Positions 16,436 to 27,513 of a stretch of 32,636 bases of DNA are shown piece after piece. How positions within the stretch are numbered: the stretch's first letter is position 1; each line of letters opens with the position of its first letter. The notes beneath the pieces were generated by a model, which saw only the letters and a program-made list of their open reading frames with translations, did not search any database and had not been told where the DNA came from. The DNA comes from an uncultured bacterium (GTDB taxonomy: Bacteria > Hydrothermota > Hydrothermia > UBA1063 > CAJXJZ01), in the NCBI GenBank assembly GCA_913055745.1, contig CAJXJZ010000016.1:1-32636 (forward strand), read 5' to 3'. A program made the position numbers and the translations under genes.

Positions 16436-17065
16436 ATGTCAAGAATAACTTTTTATTTCGTACGGCACGGGGAATCTGAGGGGAATAAAGAAGGATTATT
16501 CAGGGGTAGACGGGACTTTCCTCTAACGGAGTTAGGAAAGGTACAAGCAGAAAAAGTAGGAGAAGCCCTAAAAAACATAGATTTTACCCTTATTGCATCA
16601 AGCCCACTAAAAAGGGCTTATGATACAGCAAAATATATCGCACGTAGCAGAAAAGTAGAAGTTATGGAAGAATTTAATAACATATATCTCGCAGAATGGG
16701 AGGGAAAGAAAAAGTCATTTATAAAAGAAAACTATCCCAACGAGTGGTCATTATGGATAACAGAACCAGAAAAATTAAATCTCAAGGGTGCAGAAACCAT
16801 TGATTCGGTACAAAAGAGGGCCTTATCAGGCATAGAAAAGATAATAAAACAATATAAAAATGGTACAGTATGCATTGTCTCTCATAGGGCTGTGCTAAAA
16901 CCTTTACTTTCAGGGCTCTTAGGGGTACAAAAACCATACTTTTGGAAATTGCATTTTGATACAGCCTCTTATTCTATTGTCGAATATGAAGAAAAAAGAG
17001 GATTTACATTGATAAAACTCAATGTAACGCATCACTTACCACGATTTGAGATGGAGCGTTTTTAA
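16436..17065 (+). CDS. Histidine phosphatase family protein (phosphoglycerate mutase-like)
   Basis: The 209-residue protein opens with the phosphohistidine motif FVRHGESEGN (catalytic H11). It has the second arginine in SSPLKRAYDTA and the second catalytic histidine in VSHRAVLKPLL. The family includes GpmB-like phosphatases, cobalamin-pathway CobC and phosphoserine phosphatases; the sequence alone does not select one. The ATG lies four bases or so after a predicted transcription start and has no ribosome site. The stop overlaps the next start (TAATG), so it is coupled to the diguanylate cyclase gene. Confidence 0.88.
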   Translation: MSRITFYFVRHGESEGNKEGLFRGRRDFPLTELGKVQAEKVGEALKNIDFTLIASSPLKRAYDTAKYIARSRKVEVMEEFNNIYLAEWEGKKKSFIKENYPNEWSLWITEPEKLNLKGAETIDSVQKRALSGIEKIIKQYKNGTVCIVSHRAVLKPLLSGLLGVQKPYFWKLHFDTASYSIVEYEEKRGFTLIKLNVTHHLPRFEMERF

Positions 17066-20000
17066 TGCTATTTAAGAGGGACGAGGCCTTTATTGATGAT
17101 CTTACAGGCATTTATAATAGGAGGTTTTTAAAAGAATACCTCGCCATTGAAATAAAAAAATACTCAAGATACTACACACCTTTCACCTTACTATTTCTTG
17201 ACCTTGACAACTTTAAGCATATCAATGACTCAAAAGGACACATAGAAGGGGACAAAGCATTAAAAGAATTCGTCCGTCTCATTAAAGAGTACCTTAGGAA
17301 ATCGGATATATTGGTTAGATATGGTGGGGACGAATTTATAGTGATTTTACCTCATACAAATAGAAATGCGGGACTGATTGTAGCCAAAAGGATAGTGGAA
17401 CGAATAAAAAAACACGAGTATTTTTCTACCTTAGGTACAGGGGTGAGTATAGGGGTTGCACAATATCCAGAGGATGGTAAGAATATTGACGAACTCCTTG
17501 CTTCGGCTGATGAGGGTCTTTATCTTGCAAAAAGGCATGGTAAGGGACGTGTTTTCTTTTCGCGGGGTATAGGAACCAAGCCCCAAATACCATCTCTTAG
17601 ATTTATAAACAGACACGATGAAACAGAAAAACTCAAAAATGCACTCCGTGAAAACACTTATAATCTTTATTTAGTCCACGGAGATATTGGTATAGGGAAA
17701 ACTAGATTTATAAAGGAATTACTTTCACACTATAAAGACAATATACTCTTTACAAAGGCGTTTAATTGGGGGCACAATTTCCCTTACTATGTAGTAAGAG
17801 ATTTGTTAAAGAAGTTATACAATACTCAAAGGAGTGAATTTTTAAATTTATATAAAGAACTACCTGAGGTTTCTAAAAGGCATATCTCCAATCTTGTACC
17901 TGGATTGAATGCAAAAGGTGAGGGGCATACAGAAAAAGAGGAAAAGGAGGTATTCCTACATTCCATATATGGATTTTTAAAAGGGTTTGTGAAAGATAAC
18001 CCCTTATTCCTCATTGATGATATCCAATGGATTGACAATGAAAGTGCTAATTTCTTCATCTATGCAGTAAAAAATAACCCATCTATAAAGATTATTGCTA
18101 CACATAGAATAGGAGACAAATCTTCTGGTTACACACTAATTGATGAAAGTCTCAAAGAAAAAACCTTCAATATAACCATAGGACCCCTGAGCAAGGAATA
18201 TACAGAAGAATTAATAAAAGAGATTTTAAGAGGTAATGTAGGCCCAGAGATAACAGAATTTATTTATAAACGCAGCGGGGGAAACCCTTATTATATAGAA
18301 GAAATTGTAAGATCACTTTTCGAAGAGAACCTGCTTTATTTAGAAAATGGTTCCAAATGGAAACTGCAAGATACAGCCTATGATATGCATGTTGCTCCAA
18401 AAAGTGCAGAAAGCATAATAAAATCTAAGTTAAGGGCACTTAATGCCCAGCACCGTAGAATACTTGAACTTTTTGCTGTTTATGGTGATGTTATCTCCAT
18501 AGATAAACTCTCACATCTTGTATCTATTGGAGAAGGTGAGTTATACAACAAACTTGATCGTATAGTGGAGGCGGGCCTGCTTGAAGAGGAATCTTATAAA
18601 ACATACATGTTTCCCGCAGGCATAATAAGGGATGTCATACTTAAAGAGATATCAACAGGGAAAAGGGTATACTATCATAGAAAGGTTTTGGAATACTTTG
18701 AGGAATTCGTCCCAAAATCGGAAAGAGAGGAAAAAAGTGCACTTTTAGCATACCACTATAAAATGATTGGAGATAAGGAAAATGCGGCAAAATTTTACAA
18801 CATTTCAGCGGAAAACGCTAAAAAGGTCTTTGCTTTTCATTCTGTATTATATTACCTTAAAGAAAGTTATTCACTTGTACCAGATGAAGAAACACTATTT
18901 AAAATAGCCAATGCATACTATGACATCGGTGAATTTAATGAATCACTTTCCATATTAAAAGAATTGGTAGAAAAACACCCGAACAACTTTAGATACCTTT
19001 TAAAACTTGCCGATGTACACGAAATTTTAGACAATATTGAGGAATCAGAGAAGATTATCCAATACATATTAAATAACTGTAATGAAGATGAAATACAGGA
19101 CCAAGCAAGAATGCAACTTGCATGGATAAAGAGCAGGCAAAGAAAGCATAAAGAAGCAATAGACCTCTACCACAAAGTCATAGAAAATGCAAAAAAAAGG
19201 CATGATGAAAAACTGGTGGCAAAATGTTATCAGGAATTAGGTGTTTGCTATAGGAGGATGTGGGAACTGGAAGAATCTGAAAGATATTACCTTAAGGCTC
19301 TTGAATCCTCTTATGCAAAATCTAATAGAATATTTTACCTCGTGATCAAATTTTCTCTCGCATCTGTGATATTCAATAAAGGGTATCCTGAAAATGCCAT
19401 ACAGATACTCAAAGAATTAAAAGATGAATTTAAGAAGATGGGAGCTGTCTATTATTACTCCCTTTCCCTTGTGAACCTCGGTGCATGTTATTATGCTATA
19501 GGGGAATTAGATGAAGCAAAAAAGGTTTTGGAGGTAGCACTTGATTATATAAAAGGCCTGGATAATAGATATCTCCTCTCTTATGTATATGCCAATCTTG
19601 CTGACATAAGATGTGAAGTTGACGACTTCAAAGGTGCAGCCGAATATCTTGAACAAGTAGTTGATTTAAATGATAAAAGCATTGAGAATCTGTACAATAT
19701 GTTATACCTTGCATCTTTATATGCCAAAATGGGCAAACTCAAGAAAACTTCACAAATTTTGAATACTTATACTAAACTTAAAAAAGATGTACATGACGAA
19801 GAATTAGAACTACACGAATTAAGAAGGAAAATAGAAATAGGTCTCATATCCAATGAAGATATTAAAGACCTTATCCCAAAAACAGAAGCGTCATTAAATA
19901 ATATCAAAAATACTACTGAGAGAGTGTACCTTGCTCTCTATATCGCCCTCTGGTATGCAAAGAAAAAAGAAATAGACAAGGCAATAGAATATGTTAATAT

Positions 20001-20196
20001 GGCTCAAAAAATGTTGCCACAAGCAAAGAACTTTAATATCATTGAATTTCACGAAATTTTATTGGACATATATATTTATCTTGGGAACAAAAATATGGCT
20101 TTTAGGGAGTTTAACCTTCTAAAGGCAGAACTCCTTGAAAAAAAGAATTTTAAAAAACTTGAAAAACTTGAAAGAAAGATCTCAGAGATAAAATAA
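17065..20196 (+). CDS. GGDEF diguanylate cyclase fused to a STAND-type ATPase and TPR array
   Basis: The protein has 1043 residues. Residues 1-167 are a GGDEF domain (DDLTGIYNRR, YGGDEF at 86-91) with an intact inhibitory RxxD (R78-D81), five residues before it, so c-di-GMP synthesis with product inhibition is likely. An AAA_16/STAND-like ATPase follows: Walker A GDIGIGKT (206-213) and Walker B LFLIDD (314-319), with a GNPYYIEEI block typical of the ATPase-to-winged-helix junction. From about 560 to the end are many TPR-like helical pairs. There is no membrane helix or receiver domain. It starts in a TAATG overlap with the phosphatase. The usual STAND cyclase fusion carries an adenylate cyclase; here a GGDEF takes that place. 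The ligand is unknown. Confidence 0.88.
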   Translation: MLFKRDEAFIDDLTGIYNRRFLKEYLAIEIKKYSRYYTPFTLLFLDLDNFKHINDSKGHIEGDKALKEFVRLIKEYLRKSDILVRYGGDEFIVILPHTNRNAGLIVAKRIVERIKKHEYFSTLGTGVSIGVAQYPEDGKNIDELLASADEGLYLAKRHGKGRVFFSRGIGTKPQIPSLRFINRHDETEKLKNALRENTYNLYLVHGDIGIGKTRFIKELLSHYKDNILFTKAFNWGHNFPYYVVRDLLKKLYNTQRSEFLNLYKELPEVSKRHISNLVPGLNAKGEGHTEKEEKEVFLHSIYGFLKGFVKDNPLFLIDDIQWIDNESANFFIYAVKNNPSIKIIATHRIGDKSSGYTLIDESLKEKTFNITIGPLSKEYTEELIKEILRGNVGPEITEFIYKRSGGNPYYIEEIVRSLFEENLLYLENGSKWKLQDTAYDMHVAPKSAESIIKSKLRALNAQHRRILELFAVYGDVISIDKLSHLVSIGEGELYNKLDRIVEAGLLEEESYKTYMFPAGIIRDVILKEISTGKRVYYHRKVLEYFEEFVPKSEREEKSALLAYHYKMIGDKENAAKFYNISAENAKKVFAFHSVLYYLKESYSLVPDEETLFKIANAYYDIGEFNESLSILKELVEKHPNNFRYLLKLADVHEILDNIEESEKIIQYILNNCNEDEIQDQARMQLAWIKSRQRKHKEAIDLYHKVIENAKKRHDEKLVAKCYQELGVCYRRMWELEESERYYLKALESSYAKSNRIFYLVIKFSLASVIFNKGYPENAIQILKELKDEFKKMGAVYYYSLSLVNLGACYYAIGELDEAKKVLEVALDYIKGLDNRYLLSYVYANLADIRCEVDDFKGAAEYLEQVVDLNDKSIENLYNMLYLASLYAKMGKLKKTSQILNTYTKLKKDVHDEELELHELRRKIEIGLISNEDIKDLIPKTEASLNNIKNTTERVYLALYIALWYAKKKEIDKAIEYVNMAQKMLPQAKNFNIIEFHEILLDIYIYLGNKNMAFREFNLLKAELLEKKNFKKLEKLERKISEIK

Positions 20197-22518: not shown

Positions 22519-22547
22519 TTGACCTGCCTTAGATTTAAGAGTAAAAT
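22519..22547 (+). promoter_or_regulatory. Promoter of the DUF6754/lspA operon
   Basis: TTGACC (22519-22524), 17 bases, TAAAAT (22542-22547). Five of six bases match the consensus in each hexamer. The predicted start near 22554 leaves an 18-base leader with AAAGGAGG before the ATG at 22572. No terminator after the aminotransferase gene was seen, so some read-through is possible. Confidence 0.7.
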
Positions 22548-22571
22548 ATTCCTTGCAAAAAAGGAGGCATA

Positions 22572-23669
22572 ATGGGTATCATTTTGCCTATTTTGATCTT
22601 TTTATATTCACCTTTTAAAGGTGTGAAGGCTTTTGATACGCCTGATGATGGCGGTGGAAGTATCACTATAAAGTGGGAACTTCTTAAGGAAGATAGCAGC
22701 GTAATGCGATATGATGTATATAGATACGAATCTTTGAAAGATACAGGCGTGCTCATAGGCTCTGTACTGAGAGGTAGCAACACTTATCAGGATATAGGAA
22801 CAAAGGATGGAAAACAATACTGGTACAGAGTTGCCGCCATATATCCGGATACAGTACTCTTTTCAAACCTTTCATCCCCTGCCGTGTCAAAAGCACAATG
22901 GTTCAATAGTAAAACGAAGGCTTCCCTCTTTATCCTTCTATTTTTTGGCATCGTACTATTCTGGTTCACAGAGGAGGCTAAAAAAGGGAAGAGAACCTAC
23001 ATAAGAAAGATTGCAGGCCTTGAAGCCGTTGAAGAGGCTGTTGGTAGGTCTACAGAACTTGGAAAACCCATCCTCTTTGTACCAGGTATTGGGCTCATAA
23101 ATGATATTACCACTATCGCTGCATTGTCTATTTTAAAAAGGGTTGCAAAGAAAGCAGCAGAATATGAATCAAGGGTTATTGTACCCAACTTTGACCCAAT
23201 AGTAATGGTCGCAGCACAGGAAACGGTGAAGGAAGGTTACACAGAATCTGGAAGGCCTGACCTTTACAATGAAAATGATGTATTCTTCCTAACGAGCGAC
23301 CAGTTTGGATATGCTGCCGGTGTAGATGGGATGATGATGAGAGAAAAGCCCGGGGCCATATTCCTTCAGGGTACATTTTATGCTGAAGCACTTATCTTAG
23401 CAGAAACAGGGCATTCTGTAGGGGCTATTCAGATATCTGGTACGACATCTGTCACACAATTGCCTTTCTTTATTGCCGCAACAGATTACACGCTCATAGG
23501 AGAAGAGATGTTTGCAGCAAGTGCTTATCTTTCAAAAGACCCACTTATGCTCGGTACCATAAAGGGTGAAGACCTTACAAAACTCATTTTTATCATAATC
23601 ATAGGCATTGGTGTTATTCTTGAGACCTTTGGTATACATATTATATCAAACTGGTTTTCTATATTTTAG
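22572..23669 (+). CDS. FN3-containing DUF6754-type membrane protein
   Basis: The 365-residue protein begins with a short hydrophobic segment (residues 3-20) that reads as a signal peptide. An FN3-like beta domain follows (about 21-108; ITIKWEL, YDVYR, YWYRVAA). A membrane helix lies at 118-132, followed by a KKGKR positive patch. The soluble domain at about 145-325 has KPILFVPGIGLINDITTIAA and GTTSVTQLPFF, and a last helix covers 338-356. The FN3 part should face the periplasm and the large domain the cytoplasm. I recognise the large domain as DUF6754-like; no function is known to me. It leads a six-gene operon with spacings of about ten bases or overlaps. Confidence 0.7.
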   Translation: MGIILPILIFLYSPFKGVKAFDTPDDGGGSITIKWELLKEDSSVMRYDVYRYESLKDTGVLIGSVLRGSNTYQDIGTKDGKQYWYRVAAIYPDTVLFSNLSSPAVSKAQWFNSKTKASLFILLFFGIVLFWFTEEAKKGKRTYIRKIAGLEAVEEAVGRSTELGKPILFVPGIGLINDITTIAALSILKRVAKKAAEYESRVIVPNFDPIVMVAAQETVKEGYTESGRPDLYNENDVFFLTSDQFGYAAGVDGMMMREKPGAIFLQGTFYAEALILAETGHSVGAIQISGTTSVTQLPFFIAATDYTLIGEEMFAASAYLSKDPLMLGTIKGEDLTKLIFIIIIGIGVILETFGIHIISNWFSIF

Positions 23670-23679
23670 GAGGTATTAA

Positions 23680-24465
23680 ATGAAGAGAGAGGTGCCACTT
23701 TTTATAACATTTATAACAGGGATTTTAATCATCATAGCGCTATTTATTCCTCACAAGCCATTCGGACAATTACAAACAACATTCAATGATTGGTTAATAA
23801 TCGTCGGTGGTTTTACAATGATACTTGGTCTTGATTCATTGCTCTTACATAACTGGGAGAAGATTAAAAGAAAAAAAGAAGGATGGTTAAGTGCTGCATT
23901 CCTCATAGCAAGTTTCTTTATTACCCTCTTTTGGGGATTTGGAGAAGGGATATTCTTTCATAGAAACCCCTTTGACGCATCTGCCACATTTCTAAGGTAT
24001 TTTTATACCTATATCTTTGTTCCATTACAATCCACCATGTTCTCCCTCCTTGCATTCTTCATAGCAAGTGCAGCATACAGGGCATTTAGGGCAAAAGATC
24101 CAAACTCTACATTACTCCTCTCCGCTGCAGCACTTGTTATGCTTGGAAGAGTGCCTGGTGGGCAGGCTGTAGCACCATGGATATTTGCCTTTGTCCTCTT
24201 ACTCCTTGCTTACTATTTCTTCAATGAGAGCAAGAAAACATCCGGCACACAACAAACAGTTTATATAATATTGGCTATAATTACACTAATTTTGATTTAT
24301 CCTGTTTTTTACATCCTTCTCCACTATTTAAACGGTATAGCTGACTGGATCATGAATATACCACAGATGGCAGCAAAGCGCGGCATTTGGATCGGCATTT
24401 CCTTAGGCGGTATAGCAATGTCTCTCAGAATAATCTTTGGTATAGAAAAGACTTATCTAAGATAG
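23680..24465 (+). CDS. Polytopic membrane protein of unknown function (DUF6754 cluster)
   Basis: The 261 residues contain about eight hydrophobic helices: about 7-24, 38-57, 70-91, 112-137, 147-160, 171-185, 198-220 and 241-257. Recurrent features are WGFGEGIFFHRNPFD after helix 3 and a GRVPGGQAVAPW loop. No transporter or enzyme motif is recognised. The ATG follows an AGGAGG, ten bases after the DUF6754-type gene. The tight spacing and the shared membrane location suggest that it is a subunit of the same complex. Not named, since I cannot place it in a characterised family. Confidence 0.65.
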   Translation: MKREVPLFITFITGILIIIALFIPHKPFGQLQTTFNDWLIIVGGFTMILGLDSLLLHNWEKIKRKKEGWLSAAFLIASFFITLFWGFGEGIFFHRNPFDASATFLRYFYTYIFVPLQSTMFSLLAFFIASAAYRAFRAKDPNSTLLLSAAALVMLGRVPGGQAVAPWIFAFVLLLLAYYFFNESKKTSGTQQTVYIILAIITLILIYPVFYILLHYLNGIADWIMNIPQMAAKRGIWIGISLGGIAMSLRIIFGIEKTYLR

Positions 24466-24474
24466 GGGGATAGA

Positions 24475-25296
24475 ATGAGAGAGTTCTTAGAAAAAGCAGG
24501 TAATATTGACAGGAGAATAATTTATCTTATCATTTTCCTGGCAGTGGCTACAACTATTTTGGTTAAAGCCAGGTTTAAGTCAAGCCCATTACCCGAGGTA
24601 CAACGCTCCTATAAGATTATAAATGACCTGCCATCTGGATCTGTTGTCATGTTTTCCATTGATTATGATGCATCCAGTATGCCAGAGCTTGACCCTATGT
24701 TAAGGGCTATGCTGAGACACTGCTTCAAAAAGAATCTTAAAGTCATAATGCTTGGCCACTGGCCATTAGGCCTTCCTCTTGGACAATTAGCCCTTGACGA
24801 TATTGCCCGTGAGTACCACAAAAAATATGGCACTGATTATGTGTTCCTTGGATACAGACCAGGATTACAGGCAGTTATGCTCAATCTTGGAAAAGAAATA
24901 AGGAGTGTATTCGCTACAGATTACAAAGGCACACCTCTTGATTCTTTACCACTCATGCGAAATGTACATAACTACAACGACATTGCCATACTTGTTGGAC
25001 TTGAGGCAGGTTCTGTTGGGGATGCATGGGTTCAATTTGCCAATGCACGGTTTAATCAGAAGATTATCCTTGGCTCCACTGCTGTCATAACACCCGATTT
25101 ATACCCATACCTTCAAGCAGGACAAATTGTTGGATTAATAGGTGGACTCAGGGGTGCATCAGACTATGAAACCCTGGTTGAGCACCCTGCAATGGCAAGT
25201 TTAGGTATGGCTTCACAAACAGTTGTTCATGTTCTTATAATTCTTCTTATACTCCTCGGTAATATAGGTTACTTTGCAACAAGGAGGAAAAAATGA
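24475..25296 (+). CDS. Membrane-anchored protein with a soluble domain resembling DUF6754
   Basis: The 273-residue protein has a membrane helix at about 15-31, a mixed alpha/beta domain at about 45-240 and a second helix at 251-267 followed by TRRKK. The domain has strands such as SVVMFSIDYD, LKVIMLGHW, DYVFLGY, DIAILVG and KIILGST. A glycine-rich turn GSTAVITPD (200-208) matches GTTSVTQLP in the DUF6754-type protein two genes upstream, and the order of elements around it is similar. Charges do not settle which side of the membrane the domain faces. No catalytic motif is recognised. It overlaps the next gene by four bases (ATGA). Confidence 0.65.
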   Translation: MREFLEKAGNIDRRIIYLIIFLAVATTILVKARFKSSPLPEVQRSYKIINDLPSGSVVMFSIDYDASSMPELDPMLRAMLRHCFKKNLKVIMLGHWPLGLPLGQLALDDIAREYHKKYGTDYVFLGYRPGLQAVMLNLGKEIRSVFATDYKGTPLDSLPLMRNVHNYNDIAILVGLEAGSVGDAWVQFANARFNQKIILGSTAVITPDLYPYLQAGQIVGLIGGLRGASDYETLVEHPAMASLGMASQTVVHVLIILLILLGNIGYFATRRKK

Positions 25297-25943
25297 GCAT
25301 CTCCTTAAATCCATGGGTTTGGATTGCAGCGTTTTTAACCCTTTCAATGATGAGTTTCCTTTACAAGGACAATATATTTTACAAGATTGGCGAGCATATA
25401 TATGTAGGAAGTTCAGCGGCATTTATGCTTATATACCTCTGGTATTTTGATGTAAAGCCCAAACTCATTGACGGATTTATAAATAATACAGGGTTTAGCA
25501 GATGGATACTTATAATACCTGCATTTTTATCCCTTTTGATGCTGATGCGTTTTGTAAGGCCTGTGGCATGGATTTCCAGGTGGGCTATAGCATTTACAGT
25601 TGGTATGGGTGCAGGTCTCGGTATTACAGGGCTTTTGCAGGGCTTTTTAGTCCCACAGATTAAGGCAACAATCTTACCTCTATATGTTTCTGGGCATTCA
25701 ACACTTATGACCATCTACCTCTCACTTAACAATATATTGCTTATATTGGGAACACTGTCTGCCATTGTATATTTCTACTTTTCAAAGGAACATACAGGAC
25801 CAGTAAAAAAGATCTCACAGATAGGCATTACATTTATCATGGTGGCTTTTGGCGCTTCCTTCGGGTACACAGTAATGGCTCGTATTTCACTCTTAATAGG
25901 AAGGGTTTACTTCCTCCTTCATAACTGGCTCGGACTTGTATGA
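25293..25943 (+). CDS. Polytopic membrane protein of unknown function (DUF6754 cluster)
   Basis: The 216 residues form about six or seven helices with a conserved-looking stretch FTVGMGAGLGITGLLQGFLVPQ rendered as a glycine-rich helix (about 100-121). This is followed by a short polar loop and then LYVSGHSTLMTIYLSLNNI. It has its own AAGGAGG inside the previous gene, an ATGA overlap at its start and a TATGA overlap with lspA at its end, so it is translated together with both. The family is not recognised. It is probably a further subunit of the membrane complex encoded by the three preceding genes. Confidence 0.62.
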   Translation: MSISLNPWVWIAAFLTLSMMSFLYKDNIFYKIGEHIYVGSSAAFMLIYLWYFDVKPKLIDGFINNTGFSRWILIIPAFLSLLMLMRFVRPVAWISRWAIAFTVGMGAGLGITGLLQGFLVPQIKATILPLYVSGHSTLMTIYLSLNNILLILGTLSAIVYFYFSKEHTGPVKKISQIGITFIMVAFGASFGYTVMARISLLIGRVYFLLHNWLGLV

Positions 25944-26467
25944 AAATAAAATTAGGATTCTATAAGAAGTTCCTTCTTTCTCTTTATGTCCTTTTAGTAT
26001 TTATAGATTGGGTTACAAAGTTCATTGTAAAAAACACCTTTTTCTATGGAGAGTCAAGGAAAGTTTTAGGAGAGTTTTTCCGCCTCACCTATGTGGAAAA
26101 CCCGTATTCCCTTTTTTCCATCTCATTGGGAAAACACTTTCCCTATGTGTGGTTCTCCATTGTAGTTATCGCCATAATATTCGTTATATTTCTCATTGAG
26201 GAAAATAAATGGCACACATTTTTATACATCCTTTTTATGGCAGGTGCTACTGGAAATATGATTGATAGAATTAAATACAAGCAGGTTGTTGATTTCTTTG
26301 ACTTTGGGATAAATAATCACACAAGATGGCCTGTATTCAACTTCGCTGACTCTTACATAACCATAGGTATGGTATTACTTGTACTCTCCATTATAATAGA
26401 TGTATTAAAACACCGAAAACAAGGAAAAGAAGAGAACTTAGAAAACAAGGAGATTAATCATGAGTAA
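25940..26467 (+). CDS. lspA: Lipoprotein signal peptidase (signal peptidase II)
   Basis: The 175-residue, four-helix inner-membrane aspartyl protease has the conserved DWVTK (D23), VENPYSLFS, GATGNMIDR and the catalytic dyad in VVDFFDF (D118) and FNFADSYI (D137). The 19-residue spacing equals that of the Pseudomonas enzyme. It cleaves prolipoproteins after lipidation of the +1 cysteine. The start overlaps the preceding membrane gene by four bases, and the stop overlaps the barrel gene by eight. The C-terminal tail (from 157) is charged and cytoplasmic. Linkage to an outer-membrane protein gene fits envelope biogenesis. Confidence 0.92.
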   Translation: MKIKLGFYKKFLLSLYVLLVFIDWVTKFIVKNTFFYGESRKVLGEFFRLTYVENPYSLFSISLGKHFPYVWFSIVVIAIIFVIFLIEENKWHTFLYILFMAGATGNMIDRIKYKQVVDFFDFGINNHTRWPVFNFADSYITIGMVLLVLSIIIDVLKHRKQGKEENLENKEINHE

Positions 26468-27479
26468 TATAGTAATCTTACTCCTATCATACACCAGATT
26501 CCTCGCCCTTGGCGGTGGTGGAGATATGGTGGTAAGAAATCCGTTTGCACTCCTTCGCATAGAAGGAGAAGGCACGAAAATAGCAATGTCCTTTTACGGA
26601 GCAAGAAACAGAGAGAGATGGGGTATACTTACCTTTGACCAGTACAACAACACGGTTGGAGATATGGGCATTTACACAAAAACCCTTATGTATTCAAATA
26701 TGCCATCCTTTATAGCCTCTTATGCCAAACATAGTTTTGCCGTATCACTTGGCTATATTCCCCTTTTGAACTTTGATTACAAATACCAATCCAACCTAAA
26801 AGATGCCAACTATCTTCCTTCCAACAACTATGATATAAATAGAACAGGTAGTTTTAACCTCTTTGGCGCAGGTGCAGAAGGCCGATATAGTATGTTTTAT
26901 GTTGGGACATATGTAGGTTATGGAAAGGGAAGAGTAGAACAGACATCAACTTACAAAGATACAACAATCAATAGTACAGAGGACCTTAAGGGATTTATAC
27001 CATATTTTTATGCAGGTGCAGGTCTGGAGAATGTGGGCGTTAACATAGGATTTAACCCTCGTGTATCCCTCTCATCTACGCCATTCCCGGTCTATCCAAT
27101 GTCCATTTATACCAATTTAACTCTGTTTAGGCCCTCTCCTCTCATGGATAAGGTAACCTTTGACTTTATCTACAGATTCTACAAAAAGGCAGGATATATG
27201 ACAGATGGATTTACTATACTTTGGGGCCTTGAACACACATCTTTTAATGACTTCTTCTTTGCATTGAAAGCAGGCATACAAAAGACATATAAAGAAGAAG
27301 ACACCTACATACCCATCTATTCAATTACTTTGGGGCAGAGTTTTTCTGGTATGAAGGTTTTTGGCGAACTTGAATATCAGAATGTTAAGTATTCAAGGTA
27401 TGACGCCGCATCACATGATGTTGCAAGCGTATCTGAAAATACATTAAGATTTAATGTTGGACTTATGATTAAGCCTTAA
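26460..27479 (+). CDS. Predicted outer-membrane beta-barrel protein
   Basis: The 339-residue protein has a short N-terminal hydrophobic segment (residues 3-17) suited to secretion. The rest is made of alternating polar and aromatic strands (SFNLFGAGAEG, YSMFYVGTYVGYG, VTFDFIYRFY, FFFALKAGIQK, TLRFNVGLMI) separated by polar turns. The final strand ends close to the C-terminus, as expected for barrel assembly, although the last residue is proline rather than phenylalanine. No cysteine lipobox is seen, so it is unlikely to be an LspA substrate itself. It is the last gene of the operon, and a strong terminator follows four bases after the stop. A cargo or pore role is not inferred. Confidence 0.7.
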   Translation: MSNIVILLLSYTRFLALGGGGDMVVRNPFALLRIEGEGTKIAMSFYGARNRERWGILTFDQYNNTVGDMGIYTKTLMYSNMPSFIASYAKHSFAVSLGYIPLLNFDYKYQSNLKDANYLPSNNYDINRTGSFNLFGAGAEGRYSMFYVGTYVGYGKGRVEQTSTYKDTTINSTEDLKGFIPYFYAGAGLENVGVNIGFNPRVSLSSTPFPVYPMSIYTNLTLFRPSPLMDKVTFDFIYRFYKKAGYMTDGFTILWGLEHTSFNDFFFALKAGIQKTYKEEDTYIPIYSITLGQSFSGMKVFGELEYQNVKYSRYDAASHDVASVSENTLRFNVGLMIKP

Positions 27480-27482
27480 ATT

Positions 27483-27513
27483 AAAAAGGGCTACCTTAAA
27501 GGTAGCCCTTTTT
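27483..27513. terminator. Bidirectional intrinsic terminator
   Basis: AAAAAGGGCTACC, loop TTAAA, GGTAGCCCTTTTT: a 13-bp perfect stem with eight GC-rich pairs and T-runs on both strands. It lies between the convergent barrel gene and sufD and should stop transcripts from both directions. Confidence 0.95.

Follow-up and report, generated by a model that had tools for sequence, protein, structure and literature searches.

A conserved four-gene cassette around DUF6754 encodes a putative inner-membrane complex in several candidate phyla

The DNA analysed here as a whole, hereafter called the window, is contig CAJXJZ010000016.1, 32,636 nucleotides from an uncultured bacterium of the Hydrothermota, and the subject of this report is an operon at positions 22519-27513 within it. 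Its first four genes, which we call A, B, C and D, form a cassette whose order is invariant in 136 complete cassettes from at least eight candidate phyla, counted over all loci gathered. On comparative grounds the four proteins almost certainly work together, since they are found in a fixed order, are inherited jointly, are retained after the operon was split and are missing jointly. Three of the four carry no family name of any kind. Our reading of the whole, namely that A-B-C-D make up one inner-membrane complex acting as a cross-membrane coupler in the service of envelope biogenesis or upkeep, is offered tentatively and falls a little short of an even chance. The four genes are:

22572-23669, + strand: gene A, 365 amino acids (aa), protein with FN3 and DUF6754 domains (Pfam PF20539; AlphaFold2 (AF2) model; FN3 by sequence and fold)
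23680-24465, + strand: gene B, 261 aa, predicted polytopic (family-wide hydropathy; no Pfam, NCBIfam or PDB match)
24475-25296, + strand: gene C, 273 aa, predicted alpha/beta domain between membrane helices (AF2 model; charges)
25293-25943, + strand: gene D, 216 aa, predicted polytopic (hydropathy; no Pfam or PDB match)

Among the GTDB species genomes, a scan revealed at least 553 encoded relatives of A, and 79 loci were returned. According to the phylum labels given by the submitters, loci of A are present in WOR-3/Stahlbacteria, Latescibacterota, Zixibacteria, Eisenbacteria and Fermentibacteria/Aegiribacteria, and in Edwardsbacteria, Poribacteria, Cloacimonadota, TA06 and Effluviviaceae, too. 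Of 481 adjacent pairs on the same strand, 480 fit the order A-B-C-D (A>B 164, B>C 151, C>D 137 and D>A 28), the lone departure being a pair A-A. Nearly every genome sampled in three phyla carries the cassette, in 1 to 6 copies which often stand in tandem, commonly two or three in a row. At one locus (L087:11596-13466) two cassettes are separated by an NfeD-like gene, an SPFH/Band 7 gene and a CBS-domain-like gene, the first and the last of these named by eye.

In loci with several cassettes, the sequence distances of A track those of its own B, C and D (r 0.79-0.87) more closely than those of the neighbouring cassette (0.48-0.55). When partners were swapped, none of 1000 swaps reached the observed correlation for any of the four pairs, C with D included. 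By these distances, the subunits are inherited as sets. In the family f9 the cassette is split over three places (A-B, C and D), and A, C and D are kept in all 8 genomes, although two of them show only part of C, at the end of a contig. B lies beside A in the five genomes in which the surroundings of A were read. Three genomes (G042, G044 and G053) lack A, C and D jointly. DUF6754 was detected in 55 of 60 relatives, in 57 of 59 Cloacimonadota-related and in 50 of 50 Zixibacteria-related genomes. It was found in 0 of 14 well-known control genomes, among which Bacteroidota, Gemmatimonadota and others are represented by single controls at most. The cassette is nearly universal in Caldifarciminota/WOR-3, Zixibacteria and Cloacimonadota, occurs in at least five more phyla and, given this presence, must do something basic there.

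DUF6754 being a recognised family in itself, the four might be unrelated housekeeping genes of an old operon with no joint function. This is highly improbable in view of the strict order over at least eight phyla, the co-inheritance of paralogues, the retention after break-up of the operon and the co-absence. An earlier, sequence-only reading of this DNA had already proposed that the four form an inner-membrane complex. Neighbour conservation and family membership were examined as a refutation test of this proposal; A-B-C-D proved to be neighbours elsewhere and fell into no known families of unrelated role, and the proposal was not refuted. The further ideas of that reading, a role in envelope biogenesis or export and an arm that may touch an outer-membrane or lipoprotein partner, are conjectural.

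The first protein, read before as a DUF6754/FN3 protein, is exactly this. A is a full-length member of DUF6754 (PF20539; E 1e-113, 379 bits versus a gathering cut-off of 27, profile positions 2-257 of 257). The family is without described function, its Pfam entry mentions neither B, C, D nor a fixed cassette, and our literature search returned no paper naming DUF6754 or PF20539. An N-terminal hydrophobic segment is followed by the FN3 domain (residues about 18-100), a transmembrane (TM) helix (113-137), the DUF6754 alpha/beta domain and a C-terminal TM helix (324-352); the AF2 model has a predicted local distance difference test score (pLDDT) of 92.5. A Pfam scan of the window protein alone did not find the FN3 domain. 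It was recognised by sequence, comparing the family profile with titin FN3 (E 1e-25), and by fold, Foldseek matching FN3 chains (TMt about 0.7, E 2e-5); essentially all of the Foldseek matches listed for A were FN3 domains. Across the family the FN3 side has a net charge of -5.5, and the DUF6754 side holds 6.7 lysine or arginine residues per member. By the positive-inside rule the FN3 arm would be periplasmic, which upholds the earlier placement, and the DUF6754 domain cytoplasmic.

The arm is short in the window. In Cloacimonadota, A can be 900-1150 residues long and then contains several FN3-like parts and a coiled coil (judged by eye, as is the number of repeats), and the periplasmic arm can extend to about 650 residues or more. 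In some Zixibacteria cassettes A has 283-322 residues, which is too small for an FN3 arm, so some versions do without it. One Zixibacteria locus (L155:7542-11506) contains two consecutive A genes, both too short for FN3, followed by genes for a sugar nucleotidyltransferase, MetK and AhcY. Sequence conservation of A is high and nearly even along the protein, as would be expected for a subunit packed among partners.

For B, about six conserved TM helices are predicted from the family profile, with an insertion in the clade of the window; the hydropathy of the D profile likewise indicates about six. C is modelled (pLDDT 91) as a TM helix, a six-strand alpha/beta domain and a C-terminal TM helix. 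Its C-terminus has a net charge of +2.8 across the family, and by the positive-inside rule the domain is probably periplasmic with the C-terminus inside. The expectation of two polytopic proteins and one anchored soluble protein was thus borne out for B and D, whereas C has a helix at both ends and not at one. In the AF2 models, A and C share the order of elements, six strands alternating with helices and then a helix running into the C-terminal membrane helix. Homology of B and D was considered, too, and is unsupported by sequence comparison.

None of the window proteins B, C and D matches a Pfam or NCBIfam family or, significantly, a PDB sequence. Twenty relatives of each showed no consistent match to Pfam, isolated weak ones occurring for relatives of B and C. 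Foldseek with C against the PDB gave no fold below E 1e-3, the best hits (1.5e-3, TM-scores of 0.3) being generic alpha/beta proteins. Furthermore, A-D have no family match to Lol, Lpt, Mla, Tol-Pal, TonB or ABC transporter subunits in Pfam and NCBIfam nor, for B, C and D, among PDB sequences. The first four genes had been described as lying outside characterised families, which agrees with these searches and with the undescribed function of DUF6754.

We propose that A, B, C and D are four subunits of one inner-membrane complex, a physical association that we consider very probable. B and D would form the membrane core. A and C would each hold an alpha/beta domain between two membrane helices on opposite faces, the DUF6754 domain of A in the cytoplasm and the domain of C in the periplasm, with the FN3 arm of A extending into the periplasm; the placement of the two domains is probable, at a lower level of confidence. 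The complex would be a housekeeping device, most likely a cross-membrane coupler for envelope biogenesis or upkeep which passes a signal or energy input from the cytoplasm on to partners in the periplasm. An envelope role is possible, at somewhat under even confidence, and the coupling mechanism itself is rather doubtful.

A polytopic core that has an alpha/beta domain on each of its two faces and a variable periplasmic arm would suit a cross-membrane coupler or a transporter. As a transporter or exporter, B and D would build the channel, the domains of A and C would bind or gate substrate on either side, and the FN3 arm would dock a periplasmic partner. The two polytopic subunits with their opposed domains fit such a machine, as do the 1 to 6 paralogous cassettes per genome, which recall transporters of differing substrates. 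However, the cassette includes no ATPase or binding-protein family (Pfam, NCBIfam), the conserved polar residues are not located at the C-ends of the strands where a Rossmann-type ligand site needs them, and the high conservation throughout A is unusual for substrate-diverse transporters. We regard a transporter as unlikely.

The case for an envelope role of the proposed complex comes from its neighbours. Downstream of the cassette and on its strand, six WOR-3-type loci carry ExbB-ExbD-ExbD-TonB genes, with a DUF4388 protein in between (at L064:9364-14495 and at five similar loci the cassette is directly followed by DUF4388, four unnamed genes, ExbB, ExbD, ExbD and TonB). Three Fermentibacteria-type loci have them in the same position and strand, and in f9 they come after the lone C. 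An LpxH-like phosphodiesterase precedes A in WOR-3 family f3 and in Zixibacteria, its name being tentative because the score is below the curated cut-off, and an M23 peptidase precedes A in Cloacimonadota. Together with lspA behind D in half of the relatives (see below) and the long periplasmic FN3/coiled-coil arms, these are the pointers to the envelope, and an envelope role is favoured since such neighbours are found in several independent lineages. The ExbB-ExbD-TonB and Tol-Pal systems resemble the cassette as inner-membrane complexes with periplasmic arms and are recurrent neighbours of it, but no cassette subunit matches them by sequence, and energy coupling is only proposed for the cassette.

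Another recurrent neighbour is MutL of the MutL/GlmL family (PF13941), a soluble protein with an ATPase fold. In loci that carry the labels Zixibacteria, Fermentibacteria, Latescibacterota, Poribacteria and Effluviviaceae, MutL and/or c0, a highly conserved protein of 375 aa, are encoded directly before A on its strand; in one Cloacimonadota genome a MutL-c0 fusion of 1057 residues (L131:1706-4879) lies beside a long A gene. c0 (L060:6354-7481; in the genome of the window G000:C6:57530-58654, L121:7531-8658) belongs to no Pfam family and shows a weak lipoyl-domain match; by eye it has lipoyl-like barrel domains and a KOW-like C-terminus. In the genome of the window it follows genes of a V-type ATPase, and elsewhere it adjoins MutL and the cassette. 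c0 was found in 57 and MutL in 58 of the 60 relatives.

These associations would fit the cassette being the membrane part of a larger system, powered or reset by MutL from the cytoplasm and including c0. MutL and c0 are both missing in G042 and G053, which also miss A, C and D; but these two genomes are of one genus, so that the joint absence is one event. In addition, G044 and two Cloacimonadota genomes have MutL but no cassette, G044 has c0 as well, and in the genome of the window MutL, c0 and the cassettes are found on separate contigs. Strict co-occurrence of MutL and cassette was rejected, as it is broken by G044, G097 and G113. We judge the larger system improbable. Equally small is the likelihood we give to a core inner-membrane machine of undescribed kind in many candidate phyla, which would work with the cytoplasmic MutL-family ATPase and c0 and whose FN3 arm would drive or sense an outer-membrane process.

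Metabolic genes recur near the cassette as well. AhcY touches A in the WOR-3 families f2 and f3, preceded by MetK in f2, and nine Zixibacteria loci have the order cassette-nucleotidyltransferase-MetK-AhcY. GcvP or GcvH in two lineages, and MazG, were noticed by eye. If the complex served one-carbon or S-adenosylmethionine-linked metabolism at the membrane instead of the envelope, the AhcY/MetK and GcvP/GcvH neighbours would be accounted for. However, no more than one or two groups of paralogues show the association, MetK and AhcY are soluble and belong to a known cycle that is complete, and no binding motif was found in A-D. We consider such a role very unlikely.

Several observations weigh against the coupler serving the envelope. 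The non-envelope neighbours (MutL with c0, MetK-AhcY, GcvP/GcvH, MazG) are as recurrent as the envelope ones, and neighbours vary by lineage, which a self-standing unit would show whatever its role. There is no concentration of conserved polar residues after the strands as in a Rossmann-type ligand site, neither in A (7/42 vs 17/134, p 0.34) nor in C (1/42 vs 8/158). A and C could not be established as sequence homologues either: hhalign aligned the domains in the same register, but with a probability of 0.7-1.3% and a nearly equal reversed control. As metabolic neighbours recur, too, envelope biogenesis is kept as a best guess, to which we give slightly less than even weight.

Neither Pfam, NCBIfam and the PDB nor the literature searched yielded a known system made of these parts. 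In two papers that describe novel protein families from uncultivated phyla (PMC9727166, PMC10849945), none of the passages matching selected terms concerned the cassette. No known kind of system fits it, and we make no claim of a new mechanism. The cassette offers a compact structural target, and it may supply part of the envelope or membrane physiology that is still missing for Gram-negative lineages without genetics.

Within the window, the cassette is part of a longer transcription unit with these further features:

22519-22547, + strand: promoter TTGACC-N17-TAAAAT, probable (pattern; conserved in L025 and L023)
22562-22567, + strand: AGGAGG, ribosome binding site of A (conserved in three species)
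25940-26467, + strand: lspA, signal peptidase II (PF01252, E 2e-34; TIGR00077)
26460-27479, + strand: gene F, 339 aa, possible outer-membrane barrel (weak alternation signal)
27483-27513, + strand: intrinsic terminator with T tail (14-pair stem, 3-base loop, z = -4.6)

The fifth gene had been named lspA, correctly so: the protein exceeds both curated cut-offs (Pfam and NCBIfam; 100.3 bits versus 73.95 for the equivalog TIGR00077) and has both catalytic aspartate motifs, GNxxDR as GNMIDR and FNxAD as FNFAD. It is the sole copy in the genome of the window (G000; 1.79 Mb, 63 contigs), which belongs to the WOR-3/Caldifarciminota lineage, the phylum name being taken from named relatives. In 20 of the 40 relatives with lspA, and in 6 of 12 families, the single lspA of the genome comes directly after D on its strand; being conserved in half of the relatives, the linkage is not accidental. 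In the tree of C, the lspA-linked cassettes fall into one clade (100/99) with a few unlinked members, so that the linkage probably dates far back in this class, with several losses since. lspA is not beside the second cassette of the same genome (G000:C9, L021), nor beside the cassettes of other phyla examined.

Gene F has no Pfam or NCBIfam match. Its alternation score of 16 compares with 12.2 +/- 2.2 in shuffles, 37 of 500 of which reach 16, so that the earlier suggestion of a beta-barrel is weakly supported. A relative of F follows lspA in four families only (f1, f2, f8 and f11). Of the six-gene block first proposed, the first four genes stand as a conserved unit. lspA and the barrel gene were rejected as parts of it, since the paralogous cassettes examined lack both; judged by gene neighbourhood, lspA is a conserved but looser neighbour outside the core, and the barrel gene a looser one still.

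The region 22519-27513 is one transcription unit with a promoter, six genes and a strong terminator, as had been described. The six open reading frames on the + strand are tightly packed, with gaps of 10 and 9 bases followed by overlaps of 4, 4 and 8 bases. The promoter pattern is in itself not above chance (21 sites vs 22.9 expected), but two further species of the genus (L025 and L023) share the motif, its spacing and the AGGAGG site. As this holds even though the DNA farther upstream in L023 is unrelated to that of the window, the promoter is probably real. The terminator stem-loop (-21.5 kcal/mol) runs into T's. Elsewhere in the window, positions 17065-20196 encode a protein of 1043 residues with an N-terminal GGDEF domain followed by an ATPase and a TPR-like part, as judged by eye.

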